Positions 5,383-56,402 of a stretch of DNA of 64,000 nt are shown here, one piece after another. This stretch comes from Muribaculum intestinale (lineage in GTDB: Bacteria; Bacteroidota; Bacteroidia; Bacteroidales; Muribaculaceae), in assembly GCF_002201515.1 (NCBI RefSeq), contig NZ_CP021421.1:372001-436000 (forward strand), written 5' to 3'. The position numbers and the translations under genes were made by a program. The notes below the pieces were generated by a model. It saw nothing but the letters and a program-made list of their open reading frames with translations. It ran no database searches and was not told where the DNA came from. The first letter of the stretch is position 1, and every line of letters starts with the position of its first letter.

Positions 5383-6726
5383 TTATCCCTTGCGGCGGCG
5401 CAGAAGATAGGCCCGGAATGTATCAAGGAGGTCGCGGAGTGCCAGCAGCTGTCCCTGCTGCTGACTCTGATACATCGACGCAGAAGTCACTCCCGAGGGA
5501 GTCTGGCCACGCAGAGCATCCCCCACCCCGCTCACCTCGCGCATCAGGCGCAACTGTGTGTCGAGCATCTGCTGTGTGCCCACTGAATTCACAGCGGTCA
5601 TCACCTGCTGCGGGCCCGGCACTCCCGGCTCGGGACGGTATATGACTATGCCGTCAGGCTCACGCAGTTTCTCAGCCACCATCGCCGCCGGCATCTGAGC
5701 CGAAAACTGATTCTCGGGAAAGAGTACCACCCCTTTTGCCGCCTGCGAAAGCATACGGTCGTTAAGAGTCATGAGCCAGTTGATGTTGTGCTGCTGGTCG
5801 ATGATATCCTCGACAAACGAGTGTATCTCGCCGTCAATCATCGGATAGAAACACATTGCATAGGGATGGCGAGGGGAAGTGACGGTGTCGAGCACACGGC
5901 CGTCGGTGGTCATAAACCGGCACACCCAGCGCGAGTCGACACACAGCCGCCACTGCAACGCCGCCTCTCCTCGCCGCTCGCGCTTGCGGTTGGCTGCGCG
6001 CAGGCGCTTCTCGGCATCGGCGGCGACAAGCGTGAGCGACCCGTCGGCAGGGTCATGCACACGCAGCATGCGGCGGCACTCTCTCGACCATATCTCGAAC
6101 ACCCTGAGCGTAGCCGCACGCGACGAGGAGTCAAACGTAAGCGAGTCGTCGGCACTCTCTCCGGCGCGGGGCAACTGCGCATCGGGAGAAGTGTCGGCCG
6201 AATGGCGCCTGAACACCGAGCGCAACATCTGCATGCGTCCTCCGTCGCCATGAGAGAAACGCTCGACAAGGGCCGCAAGCGAAAAGTCGTGGAGCTCGCC
6301 CATCAGTTCGGCTCCTGCCCCGTCGGGGGCTGTGAGTCTGTCGATGAAGAAACGCGCCGGACTCACTATCCTCGGGAGTCCGTCCGACGGTGCTATACGC
6401 TGTATGGCGCATCCCGATATGAGGAATTCCTGAAACGTGGCCGCATCTGTCTCGACCGTATCGGCCAGCAGCGCATCGCCGGCCACACTTTCGCGGAAGC
6501 AGCCGGTAATGGTCTTTACAAGCTGACGGATGACATTGTTGGTGACAGGCGTATAGCCGTTCTCTATGAGGTAATCGCCTTCGCTGCGTACGGTGCCGTT
6601 GTCGAGCAGACATGGGTCGAGCCACTGGCGTCCGAATGTATAGCGCTTGTAGCGGAGCCGGCGCGCCCGCAGAGTAGCGCCCGACTCCCAGGCCGCGCGG
6701 GCCCGGGATAATACTGTGTCGTTCAT
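5383..6726 (-). CDS. Phage portal-like protein, short
   Basis: A 447-residue protein with no signal peptide. The layout (basic N-terminus, YLIENGYTPVTNNVIRQLVK helix, a mixed central wing with SPARFFID, a segment about making a binding to EDIIDQQHNINWLM, then SAQMPAAMVAEKL and a Gln-rich SMYQSQQQGQLLALRDLL helix) resembles tailed-phage portal proteins that sit at the capsid vertex. It ends soon after that helix, whereas many portals of this type continue much further, so it may be truncated or a reduced form. It is the last gene of the minus-strand cassette, 20 bases after the adaptor-like gene. Start M chosen just after the upstream stop codon. Family call is from pattern only. Confidence 0.5.
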   Translation of the reverse strand: MNDTVLSRARAAWESGATLRARRLRYKRYTFGRQWLDPCLLDNGTVRSEGDYLIENGYTPVTNNVIRQLVKTITGCFRESVAGDALLADTVETDAATFQEFLISGCAIQRIAPSDGLPRIVSPARFFIDRLTAPDGAGAELMGELHDFSLAALVERFSHGDGGRMQMLRSVFRRHSADTSPDAQLPRAGESADDSLTFDSSSRAATLRVFEIWSRECRRMLRVHDPADGSLTLVAADAEKRLRAANRKRERRGEAALQWRLCVDSRWVCRFMTTDGRVLDTVTSPRHPYAMCFYPMIDGEIHSFVEDIIDQQHNINWLMTLNDRMLSQAAKGVVLFPENQFSAQMPAAMVAEKLREPDGIVIYRPEPGVPGPQQVMTAVNSVGTQQMLDTQLRLMREVSGVGDALRGQTPSGVTSASMYQSQQQGQLLALRDLLDTFRAYLLRRRKG

Positions 6727-6746
6727 AGTAGTTGTGTGTATGGGTT

Positions 6747-7298
6747 TCAGATGATTGGCTTGATGGTTGAGAGAGCGAGAGAGTCGATGCGGTAGATGCC
6801 GGGCGAATCGGTCACGGCATGACACGACAGCGGGCGCACTGTGCTACCCGGCGAGGCTGTCGGCGCTGGCGAGCATACACGCACGGCACGTCCGGTCACT
6901 ACGGCCACCGGAGTCCGATGGTCCGACCTCTGCCGGCCCGAAAGCTGCAGCGACGCCCCGGGGATAGTCCCGTCGGGAATAATAAGCGCCGGAGAGCTCC
7001 ATCCGGGGAGCAACAGATAGGAAAGACGCACGACATCATCCGGGAGCAAGAACCAGCCTGTGCCGTCGGAGAGAATCTCCACCTCCACACGTGCCGCGAT
7101 ATCTACCGGGGCGAGCATCTCCAATGGAGCCGTGCGTATAAGATTGTCGTACCAGGCCTGCATGCGCGTCTGCAGATGGGCGTCAAGGTCGATGCCGTCG
7201 AAACGCATCACGTCGCATCCCGAATTGACAGCCTCAGGGAAGGCGCGCAGACGCCACTCGGCCATCATACCGTCAAGGTCAAGAGTAAGAGCTGACAT
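6747..7298 (-). CDS. Phage adaptor-like protein
   Basis: A 183-residue soluble protein beginning MSALTLDLDGMMAEW. It has an N-terminal helical part (GIDLDAHLQTRMQAWYDNLI) and a C-terminal part rich in strands with ILSDGTGWFLLPDDVVRLSYLLLPGW. In position and size it fits the small protein that follows the capsid gene in SU10-like phages and joins head and tail, but I see no decisive motif. It lies between the IS21 element (left end 53 bases upstream) and the portal-like gene. The open frame extends into the insertion sequence; the internal ATG at 7298 is the first start outside it. Confidence 0.4.
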   Translation of the reverse strand: MSALTLDLDGMMAEWRLRAFPEAVNSGCDVMRFDGIDLDAHLQTRMQAWYDNLIRTAPLEMLAPVDIAARVEVEILSDGTGWFLLPDDVVRLSYLLLPGWSSPALIIPDGTIPGASLQLSGRQRSDHRTPVAVVTGRAVRVCSPAPTASPGSTVRPLSCHAVTDSPGIYRIDSLALSTIKPII

Positions 7299-7342
7299 AA
7301 TAATAGAAGAATTTTCATAGATTATAAGAGATAACGGAGTGA

Positions 7343-7350
7343 GAATTGGC
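7343..7350. repeat. Target-site duplication, left copy
   Basis: GAATTGGC directly abuts the left end of the IS21 element; the identical copy is at 9962-9969. Eight bases is within the range reported for IS21-family insertions. Confidence 0.9.
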
Positions 7351-7465
7351 TGCATCTAACATTTGAAAAGGGACCCAGGTAGAGCAATTGAAAAGGGACC
7401 CACCCCATGGGTAAGTTCAACCGGATATCGTTGATTAGAAAGAACGACATCAACGATTCCACAAA

Positions 7466-9067
7466 ATGCTACACATGGAGGAAAAAACATCCATTATTCT
7501 GTCTCATCGCCGCGAGGGGATGAGCATCCGCGAGATAGCGCGCCGCAACGGCATGAGCCGCAAGACCGTGCGCAAGTATCTGCGCGAGTTCGAGAGAGAG
7601 GCCGGCCCGTCACCGACAGAGCGGGAGGTTGACGATTATCTGCTGACCAGGCCGAAGTATGACAGCAGCGGACGCGTCAGGCGTGTTGTGACCGATGATG
7701 TCCGCCGTCGCATCGATGGTTTTATCGCCCGCAACCGGGAGAACGTCGCTGCCGGATTGCACAAGCAGCAGATGCGCAAGCTCGATATGTGGCGACGTCT
7801 TCAGGACGATGGCGTGCGTATCGCCTATTCCACAGTATGTCAGTATGTCCGTGCGCTGGAGGCAGCGCCGAAGTCGCAAGAAAAGCCTGCAAAGGCATAT
7901 ATCCGTCAGGACTATGAGCCTGGATTCCGTTGCGAGTTCGACTGGGGCGTGCTTACCCTGTGGATCGGTGGAGTCAGGACTCGCCTTCACATGGCGGTAT
8001 TCACCCTCGACCACAGCAATATGCGCAAGGCATATCTGTTTTCGCGCGAAGATACCCTGGCTCTTATGGAAGCCCACCGCAACTGCTTCCGGGAGTTGGG
8101 GGGCACCCCGCGCGTGATGGCCTATGACAACATGCGTACCGCCGTAAAGAAGTTCCTCGGGCGCGACCGCGAGCACACGGATGCGCTGCTGCGCATGGAG
8201 GTACACTACTGTTTCACACCCCATTTCTGCAACCCTCGCTCGGGATGGGAAAAAGGCAAGGTGGAACGTTCGGTGGAATATATCCGGCGTCGTGCATTCT
8301 CGTTCGAGGTCCGGTTTGACTCCCTGGATGCCGCGCAGACGCATCTGGCGGCAGTCTGCGACAGGCTCAACACAGAGGCGTCCAACATGTCGGCGGAAGA
8401 AAAACGCCTGCGCATACAGGCCGATCTGGCGGCGCTACGTCCGTTGGACCACGGTGACATCGGCTGCTTCGAGCAGCGGCTGTACCGCGTCGGAAAGTAT
8501 TCAACGATAACCGTTGACGGAGTGCACTACTCTGTGCCCGACCGTCTGGTGGGCTCGCAGGTGGCGGTAAAGCTGTATTCCGAGCGCATCGTGGTGCTTT
8601 ACGGACGCGACAAGGTGGCCAATCATGCCCGAAGCCGACGCTCCGGCGACTGGGTCATCGACCTGATGCATTATCTGGGTACATTCCTGCGCAAACCGGC
8701 CGCTCTGGGGCGGTCTGTGGCTCTGCAACAGGTACATCCGTCGGTGGCGGCGCTTTACCGCGAACACTTCCGCGAGTCTCCGCGAAGCTTCATAGAACTG
8801 CTTGTGTTCACCCGCGACAACAATCTGGCATACACTGACATCGTCCGTGCCGCCACAAGTCTTTCGTCCCGCGGGCTCCAGCGCCTCTCATCTGAACAGA
8901 TACAGGCTCAGATGATCTCGGCGGAAGGACATATGCAGTCAACCGCCGATATCGCGGCAACGAACGTTCCCGACCCGCAACAGGCTGAAATAGAAAGTTC
9001 GGCAAGCCATACCCTTGACATGCTTTCATCATTTATGGAATATACCCGCGCATCGCAGGCAGACTGA
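7466..9067 (+). CDS. istA: IS21 family transposase IstA
   Basis: A 533-residue DDE transposase. An N-terminal helix-turn-helix (about residues 20-40, SIREIARRNGMSRKTVRKYL) binds the element ends. The integrase-like catalytic core follows, with D159 in EFDWG, D221 in AYDN and E267 in WEKGKVE. A C-terminal region about 300-480 carries the YSVPDRLVGSQV beta-barrel typical of IstA. Two possible starts, at 7466 and 7475, differ by three residues. The gene lies 31 bases before istB and is transcribed with it, reading against the surrounding phage-like cassette. Confidence 0.95.
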   Translation: MLHMEEKTSIILSHRREGMSIREIARRNGMSRKTVRKYLREFEREAGPSPTEREVDDYLLTRPKYDSSGRVRRVVTDDVRRRIDGFIARNRENVAAGLHKQQMRKLDMWRRLQDDGVRIAYSTVCQYVRALEAAPKSQEKPAKAYIRQDYEPGFRCEFDWGVLTLWIGGVRTRLHMAVFTLDHSNMRKAYLFSREDTLALMEAHRNCFRELGGTPRVMAYDNMRTAVKKFLGRDREHTDALLRMEVHYCFTPHFCNPRSGWEKGKVERSVEYIRRRAFSFEVRFDSLDAAQTHLAAVCDRLNTEASNMSAEEKRLRIQADLAALRPLDHGDIGCFEQRLYRVGKYSTITVDGVHYSVPDRLVGSQVAVKLYSERIVVLYGRDKVANHARSRRSGDWVIDLMHYLGTFLRKPAALGRSVALQQVHPSVAALYREHFRESPRSFIELLVFTRDNNLAYTDIVRAATSLSSRGLQRLSSEQIQAQMISAEGHMQSTADIAATNVPDPQQAEIESSASHTLDMLSSFMEYTRASQAD

Positions 9068-9098
9068 ATACCCCCCCAAAAAACAACCAATACACTGA

Positions 9099-9887
9099 AT
9101 GACAATGACAGACATACATGAAACAGACCGTGACGGACTTCGGGAGCTCATTCGCTCATGCGCTTTCGACCTTAAACTCCCGCTTGTGCGGCGCGACATC
9201 GACCTGCTTATACAGCAGAGCGCCGACGAACAATGGAACCTATGGCGGTTTACAGCCGAACTGCTCCGGCGCGAAAAAGAGAACCGCTCTGAAAACCAGC
9301 GCCGTCACCGCATCAAAAACGCAGGGTTCCCGCAACTTCGCTATCTTAACGAAATCGACACCGACGCTCTGCCCGCCGATGCCCGGAAAGCGCTCCCGAC
9401 ACTCGAGACACTCGACTTCATCAAAAACGGACGCAACCTCATTCTATACGGCAATCCCGGAACAGGCAAGACTCATCTGGCGACAGCTCTCGGTATCGCC
9501 GCATGTAATGCCGGACACTCGGTGCTGTTCACATCCGTGCCAAGACTGCTCACGCAGATACGCGAGTGCCGCAACGCTTTGACACTCCGGTCGCTGGAAA
9601 ACAAGTTCGAGAGATACGACATGGTCATCTGTGATGAGTTCGGATACGTCTCCTGCGACAAGGCCGGCGCAGAGATGCTCTTTAACCATCTCTCCCTCCG
9701 CACCGACAAGAAGACGACCGTCGTCACAACCAATCTCGCCTTCAACCGCTGGAACGAGATTATTGACGACAAAGTACTGGTCACCGCAATGGTAGACCGC
9801 CTGACCCACAAGGCTATACTGCTTAACATGACAGGCAAATCATACCGCATGAAAGAAACTCAGGAAATGATGACTCAACAAATATAA
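9099..9887 (+). CDS. istB: IS21 helper ATPase IstB
   Basis: A 262-residue AAA+ ATPase of the DnaC/IstB family. Walker A is GNPGTGKT (118-125) and Walker B is MVICDEFG near 180. IstB assembles on target DNA and directs IstA-mediated insertion. The N-terminal helical IstB domain is present. It is the second gene of the element, ending 74 bases before the right end. Confidence 0.95.
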   Translation: MTMTDIHETDRDGLRELIRSCAFDLKLPLVRRDIDLLIQQSADEQWNLWRFTAELLRREKENRSENQRRHRIKNAGFPQLRYLNEIDTDALPADARKALPTLETLDFIKNGRNLILYGNPGTGKTHLATALGIAACNAGHSVLFTSVPRLLTQIRECRNALTLRSLENKFERYDMVICDEFGYVSCDKAGAEMLFNHLSLRTDKKTTVVTTNLAFNRWNEIIDDKVLVTAMVDRLTHKAILLNMTGKSYRMKETQEMMTQQI

Positions 9888-9960
9888 TTATCTTTGCATC
9901 CCCATCCCGGGTGGTCCCCTTTTCAAATGCTATCCGGGTCCCTTTTCAAATGTTAGATAC

Positions 9961-9993
9961 AGAATTGGCGCCATCGAGTCATGGCGCCATTCT
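9961..9993. other. Stem-loop at the IS21 target site
   Basis: AGAATTGGCGCCAT (9961-9974) pairs with ATGGCGCCATTCT (9981-9993) around CGAGTC, with one bulged T. It lies 31 bases beyond the stop of the capsid-like gene on the minus strand. The insertion target GAATTGGC is part of this stem, and the duplication restores it on the right side. No T-run follows on the minus strand, so a processing or stability role is as likely as termination. Confidence 0.65.
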
Positions 9994-10024
9994 CTGAAAC
10001 AGGGAGGTTGTACAGGCTACGGCG

Positions 10025-11248
10025 TCACTTTACACCGATAATACGCATATGGGCCTCAGGATAACGGAGCACAAGGCAGGAAGCCTCGGTGAGCACCACG
10101 GCATCGGAGTTGCGCTGGCCGCTCTTCTTAAGGTCGAGGAGCATGGCCGAGAACGGGATGTGGGTGTACTTCTGAAGATATTCCGGGTCGATTATGATGC
10201 CGTCGTCCTCATGTCCGCAAAGGTCGAAAGTCTCGCTGTGCACCACATAGAGAGTGCCGAAGTTCGACGATATCACCTTGAGGTTGAGCCCCCAGTGCAC
10301 CTCGGTCTCTACCGAGCCCATCTGCTTGACAGTGGCCTCCTTGGAAGGATTGACCAGAGTGCGCACACACTTCGAGCCGGCTATAAGCACCTTGCGTGCC
10401 GAGCCTCCGTGGCCGGTAAACGCCTGGCGGCAAAGCTCTACGAAATCGCCCGTGCACAACTGCGACGGAAGCCTGAACTCACGCGTAATCTGATGCCATA
10501 TGCCCCCGGTGAAGTATACATTCCCGTCGGGACCGCTCGTCTTCCTGCGCGAGCCGAAAATGAAATTTCGCTCCATGCCCATACGCATGTCGATAATGGC
10601 CGCCTCCTGCTGGTCGGTGAATGACATGTCGGCCTGCTTGAGCGCGGATGTCAGCACTGCTCCTTGTTCAACTTGAGCCTTGAATATTTGACAGAAATTA
10701 TGCTCAGGCTTAGGCACAAACGTGGTCTGAGGAGTCTGTACGTCGAGTTCGGCGGCAGCGCGCCCCATACGCACGATGGTGGATTCACCCTCGGCCTCGG
10801 TGTCGGCCACAAATCTATCGTCGGGACCGACATACTCCACCGAAAGTCCACGGATGTCGGCCTCTAATACATAAAAAGTATGCGACTTGCCGCCAGCCAG
10901 CGCCCCTGTAAGGAGCACGGTATCGGTTTTTGAAAATGCCTTGTAGTCGTTTTTTTCGACAAGCGCCATCAAAAATTCGCCGTCATTGCCGTCACTGCCG
11001 GCGACAGACTTTACCTCAGCCGATGACGGACGGCTGTCGACGGTGTAATACCTTACTTCCATCGAGCCCGACGCACGACTGCGGGCAGAACGCGAAATCT
11101 GGTCGACAGGAGTGGCCATAGGCCGTATCTTCAGCAAACGTCGGTCTATGTCAGGCAGTATCATGCCTGAGTCGATTGATTCGATTGAGGCGGCTGTGAG
11201 CGGAGTGCCTAACACATGGGTTGCGTGGGTTGTTGAAACTGTGTCCAT
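10025..11248 (-). CDS. Capsid-like protein, SU10/DUF5309 type
   Basis: A 407-residue protein without signal peptide. The N-terminal 90 residues are Ser/Thr- and Asp-rich with DIDRRLLKIRPMATPVDQI; the centre has KPEHNFCQIFKAQVEQG and a long helix TDQQEAAIIDMRMGMERN followed by FIFGSRR; the C-terminal half is strand-rich (NLKVISSNFGTLYVVHSETF). This order, the helix before an F-x-G turn, and the length fit SU10-type major capsid proteins (HK97 fold, DUF5309). No scaffold or protease gene is adjacent. It is the second gene of the cassette; a stem-loop and then IS21 separate it from the adaptor-like gene. The call rests on pattern; a structure prediction would settle it. Confidence 0.6.
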   Translation of the reverse strand: MDTVSTTHATHVLGTPLTAASIESIDSGMILPDIDRRLLKIRPMATPVDQISRSARSRASGSMEVRYYTVDSRPSSAEVKSVAGSDGNDGEFLMALVEKNDYKAFSKTDTVLLTGALAGGKSHTFYVLEADIRGLSVEYVGPDDRFVADTEAEGESTIVRMGRAAAELDVQTPQTTFVPKPEHNFCQIFKAQVEQGAVLTSALKQADMSFTDQQEAAIIDMRMGMERNFIFGSRRKTSGPDGNVYFTGGIWHQITREFRLPSQLCTGDFVELCRQAFTGHGGSARKVLIAGSKCVRTLVNPSKEATVKQMGSVETEVHWGLNLKVISSNFGTLYVVHSETFDLCGHEDDGIIIDPEYLQKYTHIPFSAMLLDLKKSGQRNSDAVVLTEASCLVLRYPEAHMRIIGVK

Positions 11249-11359
11249 AATAAGAAGATAAAGAGCTTGTTAGATGATTTATAGGTTATCTGAAATAAAA
11301 GTGTGTTTTCCAAGTAAGAAGAAAAAGAAAGGTTGTAAGATTACATCACATGCGGAATG

Positions 11360-11602
11360 TCAGTCCCACACTGAATATGCGTCGGGGAGGAAAAAAACGT
11401 CATGGGCCACGGGCTCCCCGTGCTGTCCGTCGGGATACGGTTCCTCGCCGCTGTCGGGACGGTTCAGCTCGGAAACAGCCCTTTCGTTAAGGCCTTTAAG
11501 ATAGCCGCGCATGTAGGCTTCTTTCAGTGGGTTAGTCTCTACATCGGTAGTCGGCGACGGAGAATTGTCATTTGGCGGAATTGGTGTCTTGTCCATAGTC
11601 AT
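11360..11602 (-). CDS. Small acidic protein ahead of capsid gene
   Basis: An 80-residue protein. Residues 1-22 are Pro/Asn/Thr-rich and disordered-looking; NPLKEAYMRGYLKGLNERAVSEL is one amphipathic helix; the tail ends FFLPDAYSVWD. The small helical proteins with R-G-Y-x-x-G-x-N-E patterns and a -VW- end are frequent beside phage-like genes in Bacteroidales, but their role is unknown; a scaffold or assembly role is only a guess. It is the first gene of the cassette, about 65 bases after the predicted transcription start, with a second in-frame ATG at 11596. The 111 bases before the capsid gene hold nothing recognisable except a partial copy of the dispersed motif. Confidence 0.5.
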   Translation of the reverse strand: MTMDKTPIPPNDNSPSPTTDVETNPLKEAYMRGYLKGLNERAVSELNRPDSGEEPYPDGQHGEPVAHDVFFLPDAYSVWD

Positions 11603-11671
11603 TGATAATATTAAGATGGTTTATAAAATAGTGTCGAAGCGATATGCTGTGTATTTCGACTTCTGACATTG

Positions 11672-11702
11672 CAAAGATACGCTACATATTTCAATCTACA
11701 AA
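11672..11702 (-). promoter_or_regulatory. Consensus promoter of capsid/portal cassette
   Basis: Minus-strand TTTG (11699-11702), 19 bases, then TATCTTTG (11672-11679): a full match to the Bacteroidetes primary sigma consensus. It should start transcription near 11665, about 60 bases before the 80-residue gene. It is back-to-back with the pepT promoter. Confidence 0.8.
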
Positions 11703-56231: not shown

Positions 56232-56262
56232 TTTGGTATTAACAAAACTATCCTTAACTTTG
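56232..56262 (+). promoter_or_regulatory. Consensus promoter upstream of U32 gene
   Basis: TTTG (56232-56235), 19 bases, then TAACTTTG (56255-56262): full Bacteroidetes consensus. Transcription should start near 56269, 134 bases before the ATG at 56403. Confidence 0.8.
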
Positions 56263-56268
56263 TCTCAG

Positions 56269-56331
56269 TTTTTCATGGTATTAGATTTAAGGTAAAAAGA
56301 TTATTCGTCGTGATGACGAGTAATTTTTTTA
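56269..56331 (+). ncRNA. Candidate short RNA or attenuated leader
   Basis: Between the consensus promoter and the U32 gene lies a hairpin (56300-56309 with 56315-56324, loop GTGAT, one G-U pair) followed directly by a T-run (56324-56330). The predicted product is a transcript of about 60 bases ending there, with longer read-through into the U32 gene. Whether it is a regulatory leader or a separate small RNA cannot be told. The remaining leader (56332-56402) shows nothing else. Confidence 0.45.
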
Positions 56332-56402
56332 TTTTATACAGATACCTCCAGTAAAGTCAAGACTTTTAAATCCTGACACTCAATATTTTGCATTCTAAGC
56401 CT

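Follow-up and report, generated by a model that had tools for sequence, protein, structure and literature searches.

A dispersed phage-derived head cassette in Muribaculum intestinale and its relatives, probably part of a gene transfer agent

The head-gene cassette in the window

We analyzed a stretch of 64,000 nucleotides from Muribaculum intestinale (contig NZ_CP021421.1, positions 372,001 to 436,000; hereafter the window), in which four phage-structural genes form a minus-strand cassette (Table 1; G000:C1:377383-383602 in genome coordinates). G000 denotes the genome holding the window, and other G and L numbers denote genomes and loci of relatives, respectively. Judged from sequence, this cassette is fairly likely to be the head part of a domesticated, streamlined and vertically inherited podovirus-like gene transfer agent (GTA) that came from a temperate phage.

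All four genes proposed by a sequence-only reading of this DNA were present as open reading frames (ORFs), and Pfam identified an SU10-type capsid and a P22-type portal among them. The ordinary chromosomal flanks that it had named, oadA and pepT, were borne out, and a Bacteroidetes-type element was found where it had placed a consensus promoter. As it had also stated, no further phage gene was recognized in the window (ORF lists were inspected by eye; the family scan covered six ORFs only). An IS21-family element, which had been missed, interrupts the cassette between the capsid and adaptor genes. This element is absent at the corresponding place in G106, and no clear target duplication was seen at its ends. 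The mechanical ORF of the adaptor starts at the insertion junction and has 202 aa; the start used in relatives gives the length listed in Table 1.

Table 1 Features of the cassette region (window positions)
Feature	Position	Strand	Basis or remark
Bacteroidetes-type promoter TTTG-N19-TATCTTTG	11672-11702	minus	upstream of cassette
Scaffold-like protein, 80 aa	11360-11602	minus	ORF; probably a shortened scaffold
Major capsid protein, SU10/DUF5309 type, 407 aa	10025-11248	minus	Pfam PF17236 SU10_MCP, E 3e-45
IS21-family element, outside the system	7357-9955	plus	istA, istB, inverted ends
istB	9099-9887	plus	Pfam IstB_IS21, E 5e-57
istA	7466-9067	plus	within IS21 element
Head-to-tail adaptor-like protein, 183 aa	6747-7298	minus	profile homology and gene position
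Portal protein, 447 aa	5383-6726	minus	Pfam PF16510 P22_portal, E 2e-23

Comparison with relatives showed that the cassette is kept in changing surroundings. The pepT-oadA site is shared in part, since both flanks were found only in G106 and G144 among the 20 Muribaculaceae loci read; miaA and pepT lie within ~6 kb of the cassette in G155 and G119, where oadA is absent, and the remaining loci have other neighbors. The order capsid-adaptor-portal was observed in 15 of these 20 loci, with a recognized scaffold-like gene ahead in 13, and the adaptor and portal genes stand apart from the capsid gene in L040, L044, L047, L048 and L050. Linkage of the capsid, adaptor and portal genes was seen in 57 loci of named genomes out of the 80 best among 341; some contigs end nearby.

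The promoter element was found three times in the window (0.36 expected), and at least three matches arose in 1 of 100 shuffles. In G000, G106 and G144, such a promoter stands 69-78 nt ahead of the scaffold-like gene; in G000 and G106, one also precedes an unlinked tail-hub-like gene (see below). In a scan of 16 Muribaculaceae loci, the strict element preceded the scaffold-like gene in 3 and the tail-hub gene in 2. A common promoter is therefore supported in the near relatives of the window only.

The capsid matched phrog_26635 (function unknown) among the PHROGs (E 3e-66), and its profile matched the solved VP1 capsid 9in6 (E 7e-20). The portal matched phrog_156 portal (E 1e-33), and its profile matched solved portals, the best being 8jov (E 1e-5). 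Its Pfam match ends at position 430 of the 594-position profile, and it lacks ~140 residues at the C-terminus of the phage portal. The C-terminal part of two aligned prophage portals (645 and 664 aa) is missing from Muribaculaceae portals. The median portal length in the 80 named loci was 463 aa (n=63), one reaching 600. It should be noted that some portal matches were flagged with in-frame stops; in the sole case inspected, G057, the ORF has 456 aa. Extra portal matches with open frames of ~650-710 aa were seen in some Muribaculaceae genomes; these are probably prophages of this phage kind.

No Pfam match was obtained for the adaptor or the 80-aa protein. The adaptor profile of Muribaculaceae matched the protein in the adaptor position in other families (E 5.8e-22) and in prophage-like loci (E 1.6e-12). 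With the scaffold-like profile, hhalign gave a match to the protein that holds the scaffold position in other families (E 2.5e-07), limited to 37 columns. Its length is 69-185 aa in Muribaculaceae versus 251-331 aa in other families, and a VWD-type C-terminal motif is present in 46 of the 51 homologs found in the 80 named loci. Thus, the 80-aa protein is probably a shortened scaffold. A search of solved structures with the adaptor and tail-hub-like sequences yielded nothing useful, and these two names were given because of homology to phage proteins and gene position.

Two further observations concern the cassette proteins. First, the capsids of L040, L044, L078, L088, L089, L092, L093, L094 and L095 carry a strongly hydrophobic, membrane-like N-terminal segment, which spans several GTA lineages and prophage-like loci and is missing from the capsid in the window; 26 of 79 capsids in named loci exceeded the threshold for such a segment, which is unusual in a major capsid protein. 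Second, a lipoprotein-like ORF with a C-terminal membrane segment, resembling a one-piece spanin, follows the portal gene in four loci (L033:12511-12891, L034:7187-7444, L036:7261-7638 and L042:6320-6691), and its profile matched Rz1-like ORFs of prophage-like loci and L089 (hhalign E 5e-10). It is a possible lysis gene in the genus of the window; no ORF of this kind was seen in G000.

Unlinked parts and their occurrence

The absence of a terminase held for the 64-kb window and failed for the genome. The first clue was a Muribaculaceae locus, L049, in which a gene for the large terminase subunit (TerL) lies ~7.5 kb from the capsid gene. In G000, TerL was identified at C1:333873-335756; a distance of ~42 kb that includes cellular genes separates it from the cassette. 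Its profile matched T4 gp17 (E 2e-19), and the ATPase motifs KARQxGxST, SE and ESTANG, as well as the acidic residues of the nuclease, did not vary among the 23 sequences aligned, 20 of them from Muribaculaceae and 3 from prophage-like loci. In L049, and in 15 of the 19 TerL loci read in Muribaculaceae, a protein of ~820 aa is encoded directly upstream of TerL. Neither Pfam nor PHROGs gave a match to it at E <= 0.1; its profile matched an 878-aa protein encoded beside the portal gene of the prophage-like locus L095 (E 5e-16), and the profile including the L095 row matched gp33 of phage BF1-TP2 (E 1e-31). On this basis, we infer that it is tail-hub (nozzle)-like. A DDE transposase gene lies between the tail-hub-like gene and TerL in G000 (L128:7931-8845, corresponding to G000:C1:332931-333845).

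Two more parts were found, one of them mostly outside Muribaculaceae. A T7 gp14-like (ejection-like) protein, recognized by a Pfam match of E 0.007 only, under the Pfam cut-off, was present in 17/17 tested genomes of six other families, 3/23 Muribaculaceae and 0/6 controls. A protein resembling the small terminase subunit (TerS) was present in 16/17, 18/23 and 0/6, respectively; a wider profile gained G119 and G173 and matched none of 11 controls. No integrase or replication gene was recognized in the loci read, which were inspected by eye without a systematic search.

To describe the occurrence of the system, 198 Muribaculaceae genomes were drawn evenly, 141 of which are good genomes, and matches were counted at E <= 1e-3. 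Capsid, TerL and portal were found in 176, 180 and 186 of the 198 genomes, and in 129, 133 and 135 of the good ones, respectively. A hand count from the lists of genomes lacking a match gave all three together in 164/198 and none of the three in 5/198, two unlisted capsid misses being inferred as G182 and G187. The capsid is mostly single copy and occurs in 29 of 30 Muribaculaceae genera. The nearest two relatives have capsid identities of 69% and, for a partial sequence, 90%, and the other strong matches listed are ~43-51% identical. Among 393 Bacteroidales genomes, 33 had the capsid. Six of these are Muribaculaceae and 25 belong to six further families; the other two, G216 and G505, look like prophages. 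TerL was present in all 25 genomes of these six families, and portal and tail hub in 24 each, G460 lacking both. None of TerL, portal and tail hub was found in 15 control genomes, chosen by us from the capsid-negative ones.

The genes are dispersed to different degrees. In G453, a single contig, one island (scaffold-capsid-adaptor) adjoins a fumarase gene, named by Pfam on its homolog in L088; a second (ejection-like genes and TerL) adjoins a secA-like gene; and a third (portal and tail hub, divergent) lies ahead of suf-like, infB-like and nusA-like genes, these last four names being our reading of ORFs. In G486, the tail hub lies at ~1.13 Mb, portal and ejection genes at 1.15, TerS-like at 1.29, capsid at 1.39 and TerL at 1.43 Mb. 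G173, also a single contig, has four sites over ~1 Mb (tail hub and TerL at 0.93, portal at 1.36, TerS-like at 1.82 and capsid at 1.89 Mb). On the other hand, tail hub, TerL, scaffold-like, capsid, adaptor and portal genes are contiguous in L260, L270 and the IMG/VR contig L275. The clusters in L260 and L270 measure ~10 kb, are followed by a TerS-like gene and a gene for a 161-aa protein, and lie between genes read as cellular; no integrase or replication gene was recognized in them by eye. The same genes are linked in prophage-like loci L093 and L095, and most of them in L094.

Selection, inheritance and phage descent

Comparison across relatives revealed purifying selection on the cassette and the unlinked genes, as would be expected of the domesticated capsid system that had been one of the two original proposals, with dN/dS of 0.04-0.22. 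Between G000 and G106 the values were 0.043 for portal, 0.058 for TerL, 0.121 for adaptor, 0.189 for tail hub and 0.223 for the scaffold-like gene, and those of cellular genes were 0.028 (oadA), 0.029 (pepT) and 0.117 (miaA). For the capsid, we obtained 0.154 between G000 and G144 and 0.064 between G155 and G119; dS was high, and some G144 pairs were saturated.

Protein distances followed those of a core gene, read as infB. In Mantel comparisons, the correlation was 0.68 for capsid and 0.84 for TerL over 29 genomes (each p 0.0005) and 0.55 for portal over 17 genomes (p 0.0005). Within Muribaculaceae alone, it was 0.63 for capsid and 0.81 for TerL, and capsid and TerL distances correlated with each other (r 0.49, p 0.0025). 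All seven families were recovered as monophyletic in a small TerL tree, support being weak for Muribaculaceae and family f60. A larger TerL tree, with L094 as root, grouped the 31 GTA sequences in a single clade (support 1.0). Of 18 sequences from phages, prophage-like loci and IMG/VR, 16 lay outside this clade, and the other two, L275 and L276, were nested in Muribaculaceae. These belong to a set of short IMG/VR contigs classed as viral (L273-L276) that resemble Muribaculaceae GTA loci.

The phage ancestry could also be placed. Among 50,697 phage records, only three matched the capsid at E <= 1e-3, with 34-35% identity, and all are Bacteroides phages: BF1-TP2 (PQ571263), BKO1-TP3 (PQ571269) and BS-TP4 (PQ571277). 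BF1-TP2, a temperate phage, has homologs of all eight proteins searched (capsid, scaffold, adaptor, TerL, portal, tail hub, TerS-like and ejection-like), the adaptor matching its gp54 at E 1e-35. However, these are phages of 64-68 kb, unlike the window system, and BF1-TP2 has annotated genes for a tyrosine recombinase, a repressor, replication initiation and recombination; its portal and scaffold have 622 and 283 aa, compared with 447 and 80 aa in the window. The terminase of BF1-TP2 (L339:22118-24145, PQ571263.1) carries the annotation 'tail spike protein'.

A gene transfer agent and its alternatives

We considered the system in the light of the six-criterion definition of GTAs given in PMC9662315 (Kogay 2022). 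Its proteins derive from tailed phages, capsid, portal and TerL being recognized by Pfam, PHROG and PDB profiles and having homologs in BF1-TP2. It is endogenized and often multi-locus, with two known loci in G000, four sites in G173 and islands in G453. Inheritance appears mostly vertical with co-diversification, as indicated by the infB correlations and the TerL tree, the capsid tree being less clear. Incomplete packaging of its own genes seems likely from the geometry of dispersed genomes such as G173, whose sites are up to ~1 Mb apart, but the clusters in L260 and L270 are contiguous over 10 kb. The remaining two features, packaging of mostly random host DNA and delivery of DNA to other cells, are predictions for this system. 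Judging by these genes, the system probably works like a GTA and is one, short of proof. A functional prophage fits less well, as linked integration, replication and full structural genes were unrecognized by eye at the cassette, the TerL locus, L260 and L270.

If so, some signal would turn on the scattered loci in a few cells. Capsid assembly around the portal would be guided by the short scaffold-like protein, the terminase would pack chromosomal DNA by headful, at random in its content, and the adaptor and tail-hub-like protein would close the head and form a short tail. Cell lysis would then release particles that carry DNA to kin, presumably with some benefit.

Several points weigh against the GTA interpretation. 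The family counts may take in prophage copies, and 22, 18 and 12 of the 198 genomes had no match for capsid, TerL and portal, respectively. Both known loci of G000 bear insertions, IS21 in the cassette and the transposase at TerL, and the former may impair the cassette in this strain. The tail hub does not adjoin TerL in 4 of 19 TerL loci and was not found in G076; the TerS-like protein was undetected in G000, G106, G144, G007 and G284, even with the wider profile; the ejection-like protein is rare in Muribaculaceae; and the lysis candidate is confined to four loci. Tail fibers were unrecognized in the Muribaculaceae loci read, where no search was aimed at them. In one capsid tree, Muribaculaceae and f60 were not monophyletic, and in the one corresponding to the larger TerL tree, the GTA node had a support of 0.37 with five IMG/VR contigs inside. 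Finally, frame breaks were seen in single genomes, in the capsid of G106 (L032), the portal of G052 (L041) and the adaptor of G119 (L043), and sequencing error and real loss are indistinguishable here. These breaks slightly lowered our confidence in the GTA interpretation, which nevertheless stays fairly high.

The most serious rival, which we regard as unlikely, is a domesticated DNA-packaging particle kept for another use, for example to release DNA for biofilms, kill competitors or interfere with related phages. Co-conservation and selection would fit it equally; the extra long portals, probably of prophages, suggest that related phages may meet these hosts; and scarcity of the ejection-like protein would suit a particle that no longer infects. 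However, a TerL with ATPase and nuclease motifs, a portal, an adaptor and a tail hub have been retained jointly, beyond what a shell or interference would need, and none of the four window proteins had a PADLOC match (E <= 1). The same evidence weakens the stand-alone nanocompartment or defense device that had been suggested for the cassette. Encapsulin nanocompartments are likewise cell-kept HK97-type shells, with a cargo enzyme, and are not known to have a portal, terminase or tail part, whereas all three are co-conserved here. Because the unlinked TerL, the tail-hub-like protein and, in most relatives tested, the TerS-like protein co-occur with the cassette, a particle that packs DNA is a better fit than an empty shell or a defense device.

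A decaying prophage, that is, one integrated phage eroding in place, had been the other original proposal, and we now consider it very improbable as a general explanation. Integrase, replication and fiber genes are unrecognized in the Muribaculaceae loci, IS21 lies in the cassette, frame breaks occur in G106, G052 and G119, and the capsid is missing from a minority of genomes. Nevertheless, the gene order is constant in 15 of 20 loci despite differing neighbors, the capsid is present in most of the family under purifying selection (dN/dS as given above, versus 0.12 for miaA), distances follow infB and the TerL tree recovers seven families. Hardly any credence is due to a mobile satellite that forms capsids, or to a phage with genes that just look scattered: IMG/VR classes contigs bearing these genes as viral and the genes are linked in the prophage-like loci, but no integrase or replication gene was recognized by eye in L260 or L270, distances track infB and GTA TerLs stand apart from phage TerLs with full support.

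Known GTAs stem from a handful of lineages, and the comparisons that follow are by description. RcGTA of Rhodobacter capsulatus (Rhodogtaviriformidae) is siphovirus-like and has an alphaproteobacterial host. Like the Muribaculaceae system, it is phage-derived, vertical and scattered, over five loci according to PMC9662315. BhGTA/VSH-1 of Brachyspira and the Bartonella GTAs are also domesticated tailed-phage particles, the BhGTA genome being likely dispersed, but they have unrelated hosts and belong to independently exapted groups (PMC9662315). FpGTA of Faecalibacterium prausnitzii is closest in setting, as it comes from a gut bacterium, is most likely podovirus-like and is encoded in two operons; it differs in its Bacillota host and in having baseplate, fiber, holin and endolysin genes, and its packaged DNA has been observed (PMC12946183), whereas packaging is predicted for the Muribaculaceae system. 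That study describes GTA activity for Faecalibacterium and its relatives and, for Bacteroides, lateral transduction; its main text has no mention of 'Muribacul', 'Barnesiella' or 'Coprobacter'.

No description of the system was found among the titles and opening lines of abstracts listed for GTAs in Muribaculaceae, Bacteroidales or Bacteroidota, for virus-like particles and transduction in Muribaculaceae, for SU10/DUF5309 capsids or for BF1-TP2, subscription papers and preprints being outside the scope of the search. A core GTA in Muribaculaceae and six related families would thus be the first in Bacteroidota within the literature searched, and it would offer a concrete mechanism, open to genetic tests, by which dominant gut bacteria exchange DNA. 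With its reduced portal and scaffold, it would show how small a phage head suffices to pack and deliver DNA, and virus collections contain pieces of such systems filed as viruses. A broader scenario, to which we give even chances, is that a BF1-TP2-like phage was domesticated once, long ago, and yielded a core, vertically inherited GTA in a whole group of gut Bacteroidales families. In Muribaculaceae, according to the same scenario, it would have shrunk to ~6-8 proteins with scattered genes (a scaffold of 80 aa, a portal without its C-terminal part and an ejection protein mostly gone), which would place it among the smallest DNA-transfer particles and make it a principal but hidden path by which genes are exchanged in the mouse gut.

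Elsewhere in the window, a FopS small RNA was identified at positions 56266-56333 (Rfam RF04319, 61.7 bits), with a promoter match ahead of it at 56232-56262.

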